A program made the position numbers and the translations under genes. A stretch of DNA of 64,000 nucleotides, from positions 2,604,001-2,668,000 of the forward strand of contig NZ_CP109460.1 of assembly GCF_036227565.1 (NCBI RefSeq). Reading direction: 5' to 3'. The notes beneath the pieces were generated by a model. It ran no database searches. It had not been told where the DNA came from and was given only the letters and a program-made list of their open reading frames with translations. Origin of the DNA: Streptomyces sp. NBC_01454 (GTDB lineage Bacteria > Actinomycetota > Actinomycetes > Streptomycetales > Streptomycetaceae). Every line of letters begins with the position of its first letter. Position 1 is the stretch's first letter. Positions 52,497-61,400 of the stretch are shown here, piece after piece.

Positions 52497-52733
52497 CGAC
52501 CGCTGACGTAGGGTCGGTAGTGGAAGCGCTCCTTCAGGGGTGCTGCGGCGATGCTGCCTACCCGCACACAGGCAAACTCCGTGTGTTTCCCGCCAAGTCC
52601 TGCTCCGAAACCCGTCCGGGAATGTGACGTACGCGACGAGTGCCCCTCCCAGCCTGCATCCAGGGTCACAACAGGCGTAGCCTTTATTCCCGCTGTCCAC
52701 CACCTTAGGAAGCGGAAGAGGGCGGTTGCCGCC

Positions 52734-55700
52734 GTGTCGCTACAGTCCCCCAACAGCTCGAGCATCTCGACCGACCGCGAGGGGCAGGGAAAGAACCCTG
52801 CCGCCGCGTTCGGTCCCAATGAGTGGCTCGTCGACGAGATCTACCAGCAGTACCTCCAGGACCCGAACTCGGTAGACCGAGCCTGGTGGGACTTCTTCGC
52901 CGACTACAAGCCGGGCGGTGCCACCGCGCCGAGCCAGCCGGCGGAGGGCTCTGCCTCCGCTCCGGCCGCCCCGGCTCCGTCGTCCCCGGCAGCGCCCCCC
53001 GCCGCCGCGCCGAAGCCCTCCACCGCCGAGCCGGCCACCCCGGCGGAGCCCGCCGCGAGCGCTCCGGCGCCCGCCCGGCCGGCGCCGGCCAAGAGCACCC
53101 CGGCCGCGAGCGCGCCGGCCAAGCCGGCCGCGAAGCCGGCGGCCGCGCCGTCCGCCGAGGTCACGGGCGGTCCCGAGTTCGTCACGCTGCGCGGCCCGTC
53201 GGCCGCCGTTGCGAAGAACATGAACGCCTCCCTGGAGCTGCCGACGGCCACGTCCGTCCGTGCGATCCCGGTGAAGCTGCTCTTCGACAACCGCATCGTG
53301 ATCAACAACCACCTCAAGCGCGCCCGGGGCGGGAAGGTCTCCTTCACCCACCTCATCGGGTACGCGATGGTGCAGGCCCTCAAGGCCATGCCGTCGATGA
53401 ACTACTCCTTCGCGCTGAAGGACGGCAAGCCGACGCTGGTCAAGCCCGAGCACGTCAACCTCGGTCTGGCCATCGACCTGGTGAAGCCGAACGGTGATCG
53501 CCAGCTCGTCGTCGCCGCCATCAAGAAGGCCGAGACGCTGACCTTCTTCGAGTTCTGGCAGGCCTACGAGGACATCGTCCGCCGGGCCCGCGACAACAAG
53601 CTGACGATGGACGACTTCACCGGCGTCACCGCATCGCTGACGAACCCGGGCGGCATCGGCACGGTCCACTCCGTGCCGCGGCTGATGCCCGGCCAGTCCA
53701 TGATCATGGGCGTCGGCTCGATGGACTACCCGGCGGAGTTCCAGGGCACCTCGCAGGACGCCCTGAACAAGCTCGGTGTCGCCAAGGTCATGACGCTGAC
53801 CAGCACCTATGACCACCGCGTGATCCAGGGCGCCGCCTCCGGCGAGTTCCTGCGGATCATGAACCAGCTGCTGCTGGGCGAGAAGGACTTCTTCGACGAC
53901 ATCTTCAAGTCGCTGCGGATCCCCTACGAGCCGGTCCGCTGGCTCAAGGACATCGACGCCTCGCACGACGACGACGTCACCAAGGCCGCGCGGGTCTTCG
54001 AGCTGATCCACTCCTACCGGGTCCGCGGCCACGTCATGGCCGACACCGACCCGCTGGAGTACCACCAGCGCAAGCACCCCGACCTCGACATCACCGAGCA
54101 CGGTCTCACCCTGTGGGACCTGGAGCGCGAGTTCGCGGTCGGCGGCTTCTCCGGCAAGTCCATGATGAAGCTGCGCGACATCCTGGGCGTCCTGCGGGAC
54201 TCGTACTGCCGCACCACCGGCATCGAGTTCATGCACATCCAGGACCCCAAGCAGCGCCAGTGGATCCAGGACCGGGTCGAGCGTTCGCACAAGTCGCCCG
54301 AGCGCGAGGAGCAGCTGCGCATCCTGCGCCGGCTGAACTCCGCCGAGGCGTTCGAGACGTTCCTGCAGACGAAGTACGTCGGCCAGAAGCGCTTCTCGCT
54401 GGAGGGCGGCGAGTCCGTCATCCCGCTGCTGGACGCGGTCATCGACTCCGCGGCCGAGTCGCGCCTGGACGAGGTCGTCATCGGCATGGCCCACCGCGGC
54501 CGCCTCAACGTCCTCGCCAACATCGTCGGCAAGTCCTACGCGCAGATCTTCCGGGAGTTCGAGGGCAACCTCGACCCGAAGTCGATGCACGGCTCCGGCG
54601 ACGTGAAGTACCACCTGGGCCAGGAGGGCGTCTTCACCGGTCTGGACGGCGAGCAGATCAAGGTCTCGCTGGCCGCGAACCCCTCCCACCTGGAGGCCGT
54701 CGACCCGATCGTCGAGGGCATCGCGCGCGCCAAGCAGGACCTCATCAACAAGGGCGGCACGGACTTCACCGTCCTGCCGATCCAGCTGCACGGTGACGCG
54801 GCGTTCGCCGGCCAGGGTGTGGTCGCCGAGACGCTGAACATGTCCCAGCTGCGCGGCTACCGCACCGGTGGCACGGTGCACGTGGTCATCAACAACCAGG
54901 TCGGCTTCACCGCCGCCCCGGAGTCGTCGCGTTCGTCCATGTACGCCACCGACGTGGCCCGCATGATCGAGGCGCCGATCTTCCACGTCAACGGTGACGA
55001 CCCCGAGGCCGTCGTCCGCGTGGCCCGTCTGGCCTTCGAGTTCCGCCAGGCGTTCAACAAGGACGTGGTCATCGACCTCATCTGCTACCGCCGCCGCGGT
55101 CACAACGAGTCGGACAACCCGGCCTTCACCCAGCCGCTGATGTACGACCTGATCGACAAGAAGCGCTCGGTGCGCAAGCTCTACACCGAGTCCCTCATCG
55201 GTCGCGGCGACATCACCCTCGAAGAGGCCGAGCAGGCGCTGCAGGACTTCCAGGGCCAGCTGGAGAAGGTCTTCACCGAGGTCCGTGACGCCACGACGAC
55301 GCCGGCCGCCCCCGAGGTGCCGCAGCCGAAGGCCGAGTTCCCGGTCTACGTCGACACCGCGATCTCCCAGGAGGTCGTCAAGCGGATCGCCGAGTCGCAG
55401 GTCAACATCCCCGAGCGGGTCACCGTCCACCCGCGTCTGCTGCCCCAGCTGCAGCGCCGCGCGGCCCAGGTCGAGGACGACACCATCGACTGGGGCATGG
55501 GCGAGACCCTCGCCATCGGTTCGCTGCTGATGGAGGGCACCCCGGTCCGGCTCGCCGGCCAGGACTCCCGCCGCGGCACCTTCGGCCAGCGCCACGCGGT
55601 GCTGATCGACCGCGCGACCGGCGACGACTACACGCCGCTGCTCTACCTCTCCGAGGACCAGGCCCGCTTCAACGTCTACGACTCGCTGCTGAGCGAGTAC

Positions 55701-56534
55701 GCGGCGATGGGCTTCGAGTACGGCTACTCCCTGGCCCGCCCGGAGGCGCTGGTCATGTGGGAGGCGCAGTTCGGTGACTTCGTCAACGGCGCCCAGACGG
55801 TCGTCGACGAGTTCATCTCCTCGGCGGAGCAGAAGTGGGGCCAGACCTCCGGTGTGACCCTGCTGCTCCCGCACGGCTACGAGGGCCAGGGCCCGGACCA
55901 CTCCTCGGCCCGGATCGAGCGCTTCCTGCAGCTGTGCGCGCAGAACAACATGACGGTCGCCGCGCCGACGCTGCCGTCGAACTACTTCCACCTGCTGCGC
56001 TGGCAGGTCCACAACCCGCACCACAAGCCGCTGGTCGTCTTCACCCCGAAGTCGATGCTGCGTCTGAAGGCCGCGGCGTCGAAGGCGGAAGAGTTCACCA
56101 CGGGCGGCTTCCGCCCCGTCATCGGTGACTCCACGGTCAAGGCCGAGGACGTCCGCAAGGTCATCTTCTGCTCCGGCAAGGTCTACTACGACCTGGAGGC
56201 CGAGCGGGACAAGCGCGGCGCGACCGACACGGCGATTGTCCGTATCGAGCGGCTCTACCCGCTTCCCGGCAAGGAGCTCCAGGCGGAGATCGCCAAGTTC
56301 CCGAACGCCGAGAAGTACCTGTGGACCCAGGAAGAGCCGGCGAACCAGGGTGCGTGGCCGTTCCTCGGCCTCAACCTGATCGACCACCTCGACCTGGCCG
56401 TCGGCGCCGATGTGCCGCACGGCGAGCGGCTGCGCCGGATCTCCCGGCCGCACTCCTCGTCGCCGGCCGTCGGTTCCGCCAAGCGCCACCAGGCGGAGCA
56501 GGCACAGCTGGTCGCGGAGGCCTTCGACGCCTGA
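52734..56534 (+). CDS. kgd: multifunctional 2-oxoglutarate decarboxylase/dehydrogenase (Kgd type)
   Basis: 1266 residues. It acts at the 2-oxoglutarate node of the TCA cycle. N-terminal ~40 residues ([18 protein letters not shown]) are followed by a Pro/Ala linker (~65-145), an E2o-like acyltransferase domain with the catalytic His in TYDHRVIQG (near 360) and the thiamine-diphosphate E1o domains ([32 protein letters not shown]). No lipoyl domain is present, as in mycobacterial Kgd. GTG at 52734 is chosen by similarity to the family start; the frame is open to 52551. Confidence 0.95.
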
Positions 56535-56638: not shown

Positions 56639-59600
56639 TCAGACGGGCTGCGGTTCGAAGTCCCAGTACGGGCGGCGGCGGCGCCGGGCGGAGAGGGTGT
56701 GCGGGTGCTCGGCGCCCAGCGTCTCGGAGAGCTGCCCGATGGCCTCCTGTTCCAGCTTGGCCGCCTCCTGGCCGCGGCGCAGCGCCCGCAGGTCCTCGGC
56801 CAGCGCCGTCATCGCGGACAGCGTCAGCGGATGGGCGTCCCCCAGCGTCGCCTTGGCGCGCCGCAGGGTGACCCGGCCCAGCTCCACCGCGCCCTCCTCG
56901 TCGTCCACCCGGCTGCGGGCCGCGCCGGCGTTCAGCGCACAGCCCAGCGTCCAGGGGTGGTCGGGGCCCATCGCCTCGGTCATCCCGCCGAGGGCGGCTT
57001 CCGCGAGGTCCAGCGCCTCGGCCTGGTCCCCGAACTCGCCGCGGACCAGCCCGACGTTGCCCAGCGTGCCGACGGTGTAGGGGTGGCGCTCGCCGGCCAG
57101 CGCGCGATAGCGCTCGGCGACCTCCTCGGCCAGGTCGCGGGCGTGCCCCAGATCGCCGTGCTCGCGCAGGAAGGTGGCGTGGTCCGCGCGCACCATCAGC
57201 GTCTCGGGATGGCGGGGACCCTGCACCCGGCGGGAGCGTTCGACGAGGTCGGCCAGCAGGGTGGCGGCGCGGGTGACCTCACCGGAGCGGCGCAGGCACA
57301 GCGCGAGGTTGTGTTCGGCGCGCAGCGTCTGCGGCGTGTGCGGGCCCATCACCTGCAGATGCAGCCGGGCGTTGAGCTCCTGGCTGGAGGCGGCGTCGCG
57401 GTAGCGGCCGAGCAGCCGCAGGGTGCGGGCGTGCGCGGTGCCCGCGTTGAGCGTCAGATGGTGCCGGGCGCGCAGTTCCCGCTCCCGGAAGGCGAGCACC
57501 TCGCGATGCGTGACCAGCGCCGCTTCGTACCGGCCGAGCAGGGCCAGGACATTGCCGAGGTTGTGCCGCGAGGACAGGGTGCGGGGGGCCTCCGGGCCGA
57601 GGAGTTCGGTGTAGGCCCGCCAGACGGCGTCGAAGAGGTCATAGGCCTGCGCGTAGGAGCCCAGCGCCATCAGCGTGCCGGCCAGGCCGTCCTGGGCCCG
57701 CAGCAGATCGGCGTCGGAGGGGCCGCGTTCGGTGGCGAGCTGGTCGACGACGGCGCTGCCGACGGCCTCGGCCTCGCGGTAGCGGCCGAGCCTGCGCAGC
57801 ATGTTGGCGTGCTGGTGGGTGAGGACGAGCATGGTGCGCTGGGTGGCGGCCAGCCGGGTGCGCCAGCGGGACATGAACTGTTCGCACAGTCGCAGGCCCA
57901 TGCGGTATTCGCCGCGGACCCGCAGATATTCGACGCAGTTGAGCAGCAGCTGCTGGACGGCCGGTTCGGGGCTGTCGAGGACGCCGGCCGGCTCCAGATG
58001 CGGGATCAGCTCGGCGTAGCGCTCCCAGCAGCGGGTGTCGGAGGGGTTCTGCGGGTCGGCGGTGACCAGCACCCGGCAGGCCGTCGCGGACATCTGGTCG
58101 CGCTCGTCCTCGGACATGTCGCTGCGCAGGAACCGGTGGTAGAGCCGGTGCATCAGCGCGGTCTCGACGGCCGGGTCGGCGTCCTCGGAGACCTGGTAGT
58201 CCAGGCGTACGGCGGTGGACTCGGTCAGCCGGCGCAGCGCGGTGTTCCAGCTGATCGGCTCGGCGGCCAGATCGGCGAGGTGTTCGGGCAGGTCGCCGCG
58301 GCGGGCCTGGGCGAGCATCGGGACGGGGATGGTGTCCGGGGCGAAGAACGCGAAGAGCTTGAGGAGTTCGACCGCCGCGGGGCTGCGCTCGCGCAGCGTG
58401 TTGAGCGTTATGGCCCAGCTGGTCTGGAAGGCCATGGGGTAGTCGGAGGAGATCCGGATGCCGACGAGGCTGGGCTCGCCGCGGCGGATCAGCTCGATGT
58501 ACTCCTTGGGCGACATCGGGTTGGCGTCGAGCCAGGCGGCGGTCTGGGCGAGCAGCAGTGGCAGGTCCTGGACGGCGTCGGAGAGCAGATCGGCTTCCAT
58601 CGGGGTCAGCCGTGGTGCGCGCCGCCGCGCGTAGGCGACGCTCTCGGCGCGGTCGAAGGGCAGCACCTCGGTCTCCTGGGCGCTGCCGGAGCCCGACCAG
58701 TCGCGGGTGAGGGTGGTGATCAGGACGTGTCCCCGGCCGTCGGGGACCAGATCCTCGATCTGCTCCATGTCGTCGGCGCTGTCGAAGATCAGCAGCCAGC
58801 GGCGGTAGGGGCGGCCGACGCGGAGCGCCTCGTGGACGGCGCGGATGCGGTCGCCCAGCTCCCGGCCGACGGGCAGGCCGAGGCGGGTGGCGAGTTCGGC
58901 GAGCTGTTCGCGGGCGGCGCCGCGGTTGGTGGCGCTGATCCACCACACCACGTCGTAGTCGTTGCCGAAGCGGTGGGCGTACTCGGCGGCGATCTGGCTC
59001 TTGCCGACGCCGGAGGTGCCGTACAGCGCGAGCCGGGTCTCCAGCGGCGGGCCCGAGCCCGTCTGGGAGCCGGCCAGCTTGCCGTGCAGCTCCTCGAGCA
59101 CGCCGTCGCGGCCGGTGAAGCGGTTGTTGCGGCGTGGGATGTTCCACACCTCGGGAGGGTTGTTCGGGAAGCGGGGGGCTCCGGGCTCGTCCTCGTCCAC
59201 GGGGCGGTGCGGCGCCCCGATGCCCAGCCGTTGCAGCACCCGGCGGTTGGCCTCGCGCGCGTCCAGGTCGCGCAGGTCGGCGGGGCGCAGCAGGGAGGCC
59301 GTGGCGGGCAGGCTCTGGGTGGCCACGCTCACCGCGGCGAACCGGTCGGCGTGCGGGGCCACCACTTCGCGCAGCGCGGCCGTCCACTCCTCCGGCGTCT
59401 TGGGGCCCAGCCGGAAGTACCAGTCGTCCAGCACGATCAGCAGCCGGCCCTCGGCCTCCAGCAGCCCGGACAGCTCGGCCACCAGCGCGGTGTCGGCGCG
59501 CGGGTCCCAGCGCAGCAGGGTGGTGCCGTGGCCCTGCTGTTCCAGCTGGTGGGAGATCCACGCGGCCCAGGGCCGGGTGAAGCCGGCGTAGCTGATGGTG

Positions 59601-59707
59601 ATGTGCGCGCTGGAGCCGTCAGGACCGGAGGAGCCCGAAGAATGAGAGCCCGAACCCGAAGAACCCGAAGAACCAGAAGAACCAGAAGAAGTGGCCTGAC
59701 CGACCAT
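56639..59707 (-). CDS. fxsT: FxSxx system TIR / NB-ARC / TPR protein (FxsT-like)
   Basis: 1022 residues. A Ser/Gly-only linker (residues ~7-32) precedes a TIR-like domain (~34-120: ITISYAGFTRPWAAWISHQLE, LLIVLDDWYF), then an NB-ARC ATPase (~190-480; P-loop GTSGVGKSQIAAEYA near 234, LLIFDSADD) and ~12 tetratricopeptide repeats to the C-terminus (NLGNVLALLGRYEAAL). This is the large accessory protein of FxSxx-COOH peptide loci. ATG at 59707 has GGGAG upstream. Its role in peptide maturation or signalling is unknown. Confidence 0.85.
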   Translation of the reverse strand: MVGQATSSGSSGSSGSSGSGSHSSGSSGPDGSSAHITISYAGFTRPWAAWISHQLEQQGHGTTLLRWDPRADTALVAELSGLLEAEGRLLIVLDDWYFRLGPKTPEEWTAALREVVAPHADRFAAVSVATQSLPATASLLRPADLRDLDAREANRRVLQRLGIGAPHRPVDEDEPGAPRFPNNPPEVWNIPRRNNRFTGRDGVLEELHGKLAGSQTGSGPPLETRLALYGTSGVGKSQIAAEYAHRFGNDYDVVWWISATNRGAAREQLAELATRLGLPVGRELGDRIRAVHEALRVGRPYRRWLLIFDSADDMEQIEDLVPDGRGHVLITTLTRDWSGSGSAQETEVLPFDRAESVAYARRRAPRLTPMEADLLSDAVQDLPLLLAQTAAWLDANPMSPKEYIELIRRGEPSLVGIRISSDYPMAFQTSWAITLNTLRERSPAAVELLKLFAFFAPDTIPVPMLAQARRGDLPEHLADLAAEPISWNTALRRLTESTAVRLDYQVSEDADPAVETALMHRLYHRFLRSDMSEDERDQMSATACRVLVTADPQNPSDTRCWERYAELIPHLEPAGVLDSPEPAVQQLLLNCVEYLRVRGEYRMGLRLCEQFMSRWRTRLAATQRTMLVLTHQHANMLRRLGRYREAEAVGSAVVDQLATERGPSDADLLRAQDGLAGTLMALGSYAQAYDLFDAVWRAYTELLGPEAPRTLSSRHNLGNVLALLGRYEAALVTHREVLAFRERELRARHHLTLNAGTAHARTLRLLGRYRDAASSQELNARLHLQVMGPHTPQTLRAEHNLALCLRRSGEVTRAATLLADLVERSRRVQGPRHPETLMVRADHATFLREHGDLGHARDLAEEVAERYRALAGERHPYTVGTLGNVGLVRGEFGDQAEALDLAEAALGGMTEAMGPDHPWTLGCALNAGAARSRVDDEEGAVELGRVTLRRAKATLGDAHPLTLSAMTALAEDLRALRRGQEAAKLEQEAIGQLSETLGAEHPHTLSARRRRRPYWDFEPQPV

Positions 59708-59819
59708 GCGACCGTCTCCCTGGGATGCGATGGTGCGCGCGTGCGCAGGCTGTTTCCCCGGGCACGCCCTGGCTTTTTGGCACGATAGCCCAAGTGTCCC
59801 TCCTGGTGGCGACAGTGCG

Positions 59820-61094
59820 TCAGGTCATATGGGGGTGCCGCCAGTTGGGCGTGATCGCGGTCTTCAGACGAGCTGCGATGTGCCGGATGAGGCGTTCCAG
59901 GTCGGGGCAGTAGACGGAGGGGTTGGTGAATCCGCTGCCGTCCGCGCGGTAGCGGTGCGCGTAGTTGCCGCCGCCGCAGACCTCCACCAGGGCGCAGGTG
60001 CGGCACTGTGCGCCCAGGCCGTCCCGGCCGGTGCGGCGGGCGGCCATGCCGGGGTGTGCCAGGGCCTGGTCGAAGGTGTGGTGGAAGACGTCGAGGCCGG
60101 TGGCCGCGGCGCCCTCGTAGGCGGATTTGAGCGAGTCCACCTGTTCGATGGCGCCGTCGGTGTCCACGATCACGGCGACGACCGGGGAGAGGCCGACCGC
60201 CTCGCTGGAGCCGGGGCGGCCCAGGAGCAGGCCGAGGATCTCGGTGAAGACCCGCACCCGGGGTGCGGGGCCGCCGTCCCACCACAGGTCGAAGACGGCG
60301 CACAGCCAGTCGCCGTACGGGGTGCGGCCGGTGGGGCCCGCGCCGCTTCCGGTGGCGGCGGGGGGAGGGCTGGACCAGTTGGCGTGCGGGAGGAGGAAGT
60401 CGAGCATCGGGGGGTCCAGGGCGCGCAGCGAGCCGTAGACCTCGGCGGGGTCGGCGGTGATGTCGATGGTGCACAGGATGCCGGCGTACACCCCGGGACG
60501 GTCGTGGAGCAGGCGCGCGGCGCGGGAGACCGCGGGCCAGGAGGGCCGGCCCGCGTGGTCGACCCGGCGGTGGTTGAGGGCGGGGGTGCCGCCGTCGAGG
60601 CTGAGGCCGAGCCGGAACCCGGCGGCGCCGAGGGTGTCGAGGATCTCCGGGGTCAGCAGGGTGCCGTTGGTCTGGACGCCGAAGTCGGCGGCGCAGCCGG
60701 CGGGCAGCGCGGCGCGGATCGCGGCGGCCTGTTCCAGGAGCGGGCCGGGGCCGGTGAGCAGCGGCTCCCCGCCGTGCAGATCGATCCGGACCGCGCGCAG
60801 CCGGTGGGTGCGGGCGTGTTCGGCGATGCGGCGGGCGGTCTGCCGGACGGTCGCCGCCGGGACGGCCGGCGGGCGGGTACGCCAGCTGCGGTCGGGGCCG
60901 GCGTAGATGTAGCAGTAGGTGCAGGCGAGGTTGCAGCGGCTGTGGACCTTCAGGACGAACTGCCGGAAGGGCACCACGGTGGTCCGGCCGCTCGTCTCCC
61001 CCGCCACGGCGTCGCCCCCTGCCTCGTCCCCTCGGCCCCCTCGTCCCCTCCTCGACGGGTGGCCCGCCCAACTCCCGCCCGTCGTCTGATACAT
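59820..61094 (-). CDS. fxsB: radical SAM/SPASM maturase (FxsB family)
   Basis: 424 residues. The [4Fe-4S] radical SAM motif is CNLACTYC (~50-57, with an aromatic YIYAGPD next), and the C-terminal SPASM cluster has CRTCALVEVCGGGNYAHRY (~362-380) and a later Cys in YCPDLERL. FxsB-type enzymes are three-residue cyclophane-forming enzymes acting on precursor C-termini. ATG 61094 is chosen, with GGAG close upstream; TTG at 61133 is possible. It lies 87 nt after the precursor gene. Confidence 0.88.
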   Translation of the reverse strand: MYQTTGGSWAGHPSRRGRGGRGDEAGGDAVAGETSGRTTVVPFRQFVLKVHSRCNLACTYCYIYAGPDRSWRTRPPAVPAATVRQTARRIAEHARTHRLRAVRIDLHGGEPLLTGPGPLLEQAAAIRAALPAGCAADFGVQTNGTLLTPEILDTLGAAGFRLGLSLDGGTPALNHRRVDHAGRPSWPAVSRAARLLHDRPGVYAGILCTIDITADPAEVYGSLRALDPPMLDFLLPHANWSSPPPAATGSGAGPTGRTPYGDWLCAVFDLWWDGGPAPRVRVFTEILGLLLGRPGSSEAVGLSPVVAVIVDTDGAIEQVDSLKSAYEGAAATGLDVFHHTFDQALAHPGMAARRTGRDGLGAQCRTCALVEVCGGGNYAHRYRADGSGFTNPSVYCPDLERLIRHIAARLKTAITPNWRHPHMT

Positions 61095-61181
61095 GGCTCC
61101 GCCGCCGATCGAGGAACCGAGTGCCCCCGGCAACTGGCCGGTTCCCTTGCACGTTTGCCCAAAAACAACCGTCCCTGATCG

Positions 61182-61400
61182 TCAATGCACGGCTATTTCC
61201 GGGCCGTCCTCGTAGTACGCCACGGCGTCCTGTGCCGACGGCCAGTTGCGCAGCAGCAGCGCCGCCACCTCCGCCAGCACCGCGTGGTCCGTCCGCGCGG
61301 CCAGAACGCCCACGTCAACCCCGGCGAAGTCCGGCAGCCGCTCGGCCGACGGCCCGGGCGGGGCGGCCACCGCCGGTTCGGTGCGGGGGATTGTCGCCAC
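61182..61400 (-). CDS. fxsA: FxSxx-type RiPP precursor with non-canonical C-terminus
   Basis: 72 residues. The leader resembles FxSxx precursors (LPDFAGVDVGVLAARTDHAV then LAEVAALLLRN). The expected terminal F-x-S-x-x is missing; the protein ends YYEDGPEIAVH. Cross-linkable triplets YYE or YED (Tyr62/Tyr63 to Glu64/Asp65) are the best candidates for a cyclophane. The start GTG at 61400 is set by AGAGGAG six nucleotides upstream, shorter than the 92-codon open frame. It precedes fxsB and fxsT in one transcript. Confidence 0.8.
   Translation of the reverse strand: MATIPRTEPAVAAPPGPSAERLPDFAGVDVGVLAARTDHAVLAEVAALLLRNWPSAQDAVAYYEDGPEIAVH

Follow-up and report, generated by a model that had tools for sequence, protein, structure and literature searches.

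The window analyzed here is a stretch of 64,000 nucleotides in which a small gene on the minus strand (positions 61182 to 61400) encodes a peptide of 72 amino acids from a GTG start codon at 61400, with the sequence AGAGGAG directly 5' of the GTG. An earlier note on this DNA had given the same coordinates, correctly, and had left the strand unstated. The translation is VATIPRTEPAVAAPPGPSAERLPDFAGVDVGVLAARTDHAVLAEVAALLLRNWPSAQDAVAYYEDGPEIAVH and the C-terminus is VAYYEDGPEIAVH, with the tail read as YYEDGPEIAVH. The peptide is made up of a leader motif (LPDFAGVDV...HAVLAEV), a core VAYYED, and a variable 7-residue tail, GPEIAVH. The C-terminal F-x-S-x-x of FxSxx-COOH peptides is absent from YYEDGPEIAVH. 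A nearby ORF with a C-terminal FxS would have counted against the earlier note, and between 55001 and 64000 we found on neither strand a stop-terminated frame of at least 25 amino acids ending in F-x-S plus 0 to 4 residues. The plus strand of 61182 to 61400 is also open, for 73 codons, and would give a different, Arg-rich product.

The precursor gene is followed on the same strand by genes for an FxsB-family radical SAM/SPASM maturase (59820 to 61133, minus strand) and an FxsT-like protein (56639 to 59707, minus strand), which is the order that had been proposed for a precursor lacking FxS. The maturase matches TIGR04269 with 437.5 bits (cut-off 370). Its ORF of 437 amino acids opens with TTG, although an ATG at residue 14 (position 61094) is a plausible real start; the frame is uninterrupted and the CX3CX2C motif is present as CNLACTYC. 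The family matches agree with the earlier assignment of the precursor to the FxsA type and of its maturase to the FxsB type, the leader being FxsA-like and the FxsB gene adjoining. The FxsT-like protein scores 864.8 bits against NF040586 (cut-off 300) and has the architecture TIR_2, NB-ARC/AAA, TPRs (Pfam TIR_2, NB-ARC, TPR_12). When the whole genome was searched, a single FxsB exceeded the TIGR04269 cut-off; two more matches fell under it, and no second FxsB over the cut-off was found. The same genome searched with the precursor gave one strong match, to the precursor itself, and six weak ones with E values of 0.5 to 0.9, and no second precursor copy was found. Downstream of the FxsT gene, on the plus strand (52551 to 56534), lies an ORF of 1327 amino acids for a putative 2-oxoglutarate dehydrogenase fusion.

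On the other side of the precursor, the minus-strand segment 61509 to 64000 encodes the C-terminal part of a SAV_2336-type protein of 1138 amino acids, whose gene extends past the end of the window. The full-length protein matches NF041121 (SAV_2336_NTERM) with 413.6 bits (cut-off 200), while the portion inside the window alone scores 187.8 bits, under the cut-off. Pfam returned no match for this protein, neither to vWA nor to TPRs. Beyond this gene, on the same strand, are an AAA ATPase of 351 amino acids, a VMAP protein of 719 amino acids, and a frame that carries Trypco1. The ATPase matches AAA_5 with 29.6 bits (cut-off 22) and bpMoxR with 21.4 bits, under the cut-off of 27; the 719-residue protein, also upstream, matches VMAP-C with 132.9 bits (cut-off 27) and Trypsin_2 with 54.9 bits (cut-off 27.6).

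In most of its parts this arrangement agrees with the VMAP-ternary conflict systems, complete with peptide module, that are described in PMC7159879. There the FxSxx-type peptide is said to come with a radical SAM/SPASM enzyme, a vWA-TPR protein and a separate TIR-AP-ATPase, and a zincin-like metallopeptidase is named as the core of the peptide module. Our locus shares with the systems so described an AAA ATPase, a VMAP-C protein with a trypsin domain and a SAV_2336-type protein, as well as the peptide, the radical SAM/SPASM enzyme and a separate TIR/NB-ARC/TPR protein downstream. By comparison, the SAV_2336-type protein would be the vWA component of the published system. Two differences stand out: the zincin-like peptidase belongs to the published system, whereas no TIGR04267 match was found in the genome studied here, and the YxD tail falls outside the four tail types given in the VMAP section of that paper.

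In the NCBIfam collection the precursor has a single match at E ≤ 1, to NF041709, 'YxD-tail cyclophane-containing RiPP peptide', and none to an FxSxx model. The NF041709 match (81.1 bits, cut-off 55, E value 4e-23) spans all 47 positions of the model. Relatives of the precursor form 28 protein clusters at E ≤ 1e-3, with 60–97% identity in the alignment; one of them, P0006, carries no source, as is listed for proteins encoded in the window. NCBI names are available for 23 of the 28 clusters, 21 being called YxD-tail cyclophane-containing RiPP peptide and two hypothetical protein. A chance ORF was ruled out by the model match, the 28 homologous clusters and the conservation in the alignment. Matches over the NF041709 cut-off occurred in 19 of 394 genomes sampled from the family and in 16 of 391 sampled from the order; these samples overlap.

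The chemistry of the class has also been described. According to the passages on YxdB (WP_226048651.1) in a 2024 review (PMC11002830), this enzyme forms a link from C3 of Tyr to the beta-carbon of Asp, a result that the review credits to Sugiyama et al. 2022. Our precursor is like the YxD-tail peptides and the YxdB triceptides in the full model match, the conserved Tyr-x-Asp and the adjoining FxsB-family enzyme, and we found no feature that separates it from them, YxdB being compared through the review's description. Since there is both a curated model and a published account of YxdB, the class and its Tyr-Asp chemistry are already described; by its sequence, the precursor is a member of that class, and the observation is largely ordinary.

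Two registers had been put forward for the linkage, Tyr63-x-Asp65 and Tyr62-x-Glu64. The codons concerned, for residues 61–67 (A-Y-Y-E-D-G-P), occupy 61200 to 61220 on the minus strand. Tyr63 and Asp65 are invariant in all 29 aligned sequences, while Tyr62 and Glu64 vary (FYDD in P0022, YYDD in P0028), as do the sequence and length of the tail after YxD. The expectation that the YYED segment would be conserved is thus borne out for Tyr63 and Asp65 and not for Tyr62 and Glu64. Because the first pair is invariant and the second is not, the link at this locus is likely Tyr63-x-Asp65, predicted to join the Tyr63 ring to the Asp65 beta-carbon. The Tyr-based three-residue cyclophane suggested earlier remains the best prediction, the tail being conserved and following the FxsB clade.

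A link one residue upstream, from Tyr62 to Glu64, is very improbable, even though conservation of both residues reaches at least 90% in close homologues and Tyr is kept at position 62 in ten YHxD relatives. Position 62 is Phe in P0022, and in four FxsB-paired relatives it is non-aromatic, with S, E, R and D once each (L032, L063, L065 and L026). Position 64 is Asp in P0022 and P0028, and in two of the 47 ring-x-Asp/Asn precursors discussed below (L026 and L063) it is Gly, which has no beta-carbon. A 62–64 link cannot be general across these precursors, and of the two proposed registers Tyr63-x-Asp65 is favored.

The proposal that the FxsB family has here a new core class started from a precursor without FxS, and it could appeal to the lack of any FxSxx model match beside the YxD one; its novelty is contradicted by the existence of the curated NF041709, by the YxD-tail names on 21 of 23 relatives and by the YxdB chemistry as the review recounts it, so that we give the proposal next to no weight. 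That the precursor has decayed, with a degenerate core and an unmodified tail, would suit the missing FxS and the variable residues after YED, but is scarcely credible given a Tyr63 and Asp65 that never change in the 29 sequences and an adjoining FxsB whose frame is intact and retains CX3CX2C.

The reading that we hold with considerable confidence is that of a described YxD-tail RiPP precursor, with a predicted Tyr63-Asp65 cyclophane, in an operon of the VMAP-ternary conflict type. The leader (LPDF...HxxLxxV) would dock in FxsB, whose radical SAM cluster would generate a 5'-deoxyadenosyl radical able to abstract hydrogen at the Asp65 beta-carbon. Joining of the resulting Asp65 carbon radical to C3 of the Tyr63 ring would give the three-residue cyclophane, with a loss of 2 Da. 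The peptide may then act as an effector or signal within the operon, its partners being the MoxR-like AAA protein, the VMAP protein with its trypsin-like domain, the putative SAV_2336-type vWA component and the TIR-NB-ARC-TPR protein. The odd tail would accordingly be that of a recognized triceptide class, in which the link here probably takes the register Tyr63-x-Asp65.

To place the enzyme among its relatives we built a tree of 70 FxsBs. The input was 77 loci, all with an FxsB match and hand-picked from the matches in the family and order samples. Eight loci (L016, L022, L025 and L042–L046) were omitted as duplicates of refetched stretches, and three loci contributed two FxsBs each. Also dropped were L015, whose FxsB fell short of 300 amino acids once truncated at its first stop, and L035, whose FxsB match lies in two pieces that were not joined. 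L035 is an FxS-type locus, and the split reflects either a sequencing error or a broken gene. With tail classes assigned by eye, one branch, with support values of 100/98 and recovered in every one of 200 bootstrap trees, separates 23 FxsBs from 47 others. The partners of the 23 have FxS-like tails (F-x-S in 16, F-x-N in 6 and F-x-A in 1), and those of the 47 have ring-x-Asp/Asn tails. The motif alone separates the two sides less cleanly, as two YFEN tails in the ring-x-Asp clade are also F-x-N. The tree has no outgroup and is rooted at its midpoint, so it gives no direction of change between FxS and ring-x-Asp and lends no support to the loss of an FxS core supposed in the earlier note.

Tail type follows FxsB phylogeny. 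The co-variation with FxsB that had been anticipated holds to the extent that tail type tracks the FxsB clade, but the relation is an association only, since there is one event on the tree and no repeated co-variation.

The two branches also differ in a neighboring gene. In 39 genomes, hand-picked from those with a known tail, we surveyed the flanking genes of 24 ring-x-Asp and 15 FxS-like loci. All 15 FxS-like genomes have a TIGR04267 (mod_HExxH) match no more than 2.8 kb from the precursor, and none of the 24 ring-x-Asp genomes has one at the locus. Nine of the latter have a match elsewhere, the shortest distance to one on the same contig being 157 kb (G112). A profile search of the genome studied here for TIGR04267 gave no match, and the gap between FxsB and FxsT (59707–59820 of the window) holds no HExxH gene. 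The remaining flanking genes are common to both sides. Of the 24 ring-x-Asp genomes 21 have SAV_2336 within 4.1 kb, as do 14 of the 15 FxS-like ones, the exceptions being G298, G330, G338 and G133 (on another contig in the last). For FxsT, at least 23 of 24 and at least 14 of 15 genomes have a match within the same distance; the exceptions among the matches listed are G338 (nearest at 6.6 kb) and G133 (other contig), and with 18 candidates scored per genome a missing FxsT is weak evidence.

The FxSxx-COOH/FxsB systems are like ours in leader pattern, FxsB family, upstream SAV_2336-type gene and downstream FxsT at nearly all loci checked. They differ in the tail, F-x-S/N/A versus Y-x-D in the window precursor, in an FxsB that lies across one well-supported branch from that of the window, and in the HExxH gene, present there and absent here. 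The HExxH split coincides with that one branch of the FxsB tree and so likewise counts as one event. We infer an extra processing step on FxS products that would be missing for YxD products; HExxH absence sets apart two branches of the conflict-system peptide module.

As the YxD class is known and the observation ordinary as stated, the interest that is left lies in this missing gene and in the His and Phe ring variants. The 47 ring-x-Asp/Asn precursors with an FxsB in the tree divide at position 63 into 33 with Tyr, 10 with His and 4 with Phe; at position 65, 45 have Asp, and the two with Asn have YFEN tails. The His-type precursors end in YHED or YHDD (L018, L020, L021, L024, L027, L028, L030 and L049–L051). 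Six of the ten exceed the NF041709 cut-off (L018, L020, L021, L024 and, at L049 and L050, the His-type module); the other four, L027, L028, L030 and the His-type module of L051, fall under it. With His in 10 of 47 and Phe in 4 of 47 at the ring position, the name 'YxD' fits neither the whole clade nor all that it labels.

Three changes on the FxsB tree are needed to account for His at position 63, at least two of them forced by well-supported branches. A single origin of the His tails was rejected by an AU test (p = 0.003), for a group named post hoc, after the first tree had been viewed, and including long branches such as L051. His at this position probably arose more than once, as far as the FxsB sequences tell. 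One may tentatively suppose, at slightly worse than even chances, that within one FxsB clade the register stayed fixed (ring at i, Asp/Asn at i+2) as the ring residue switched among Tyr, His and Phe. If so, YHED/YHDD-type precursors would carry a predicted His-Asp cyclophane, and the product of the ring-x-Asp clade would miss whatever the HExxH enzyme does. The clade offers a natural series of Tyr, His and Phe rings and of Asp and Asn acceptors, bearing on ring selection by a cyclophane synthase. In the portions of the literature reached through class and enzyme names, rather than through the motif, we met no mention of His-x-Asp tails of this clade.

Three loci (L049, L050 and L051) carry two precursor-FxsB pairs each, about 4.7 kb apart with an FxsT gene between them. 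One pair is His-type (YHED/YHDD) and the other Tyr-type, with an FYED tail, each with its own FxsB. The precursor L064, from G418, has tandem cores, AYFSDAP and AYFADTP, possibly giving two Phe-x-Asp cyclophanes. The two YFEN tails belong to L085 and L086, where Phe-x-Asn replaces Tyr-x-Asp and the FxsB lies within the ring-x-Asp clade.
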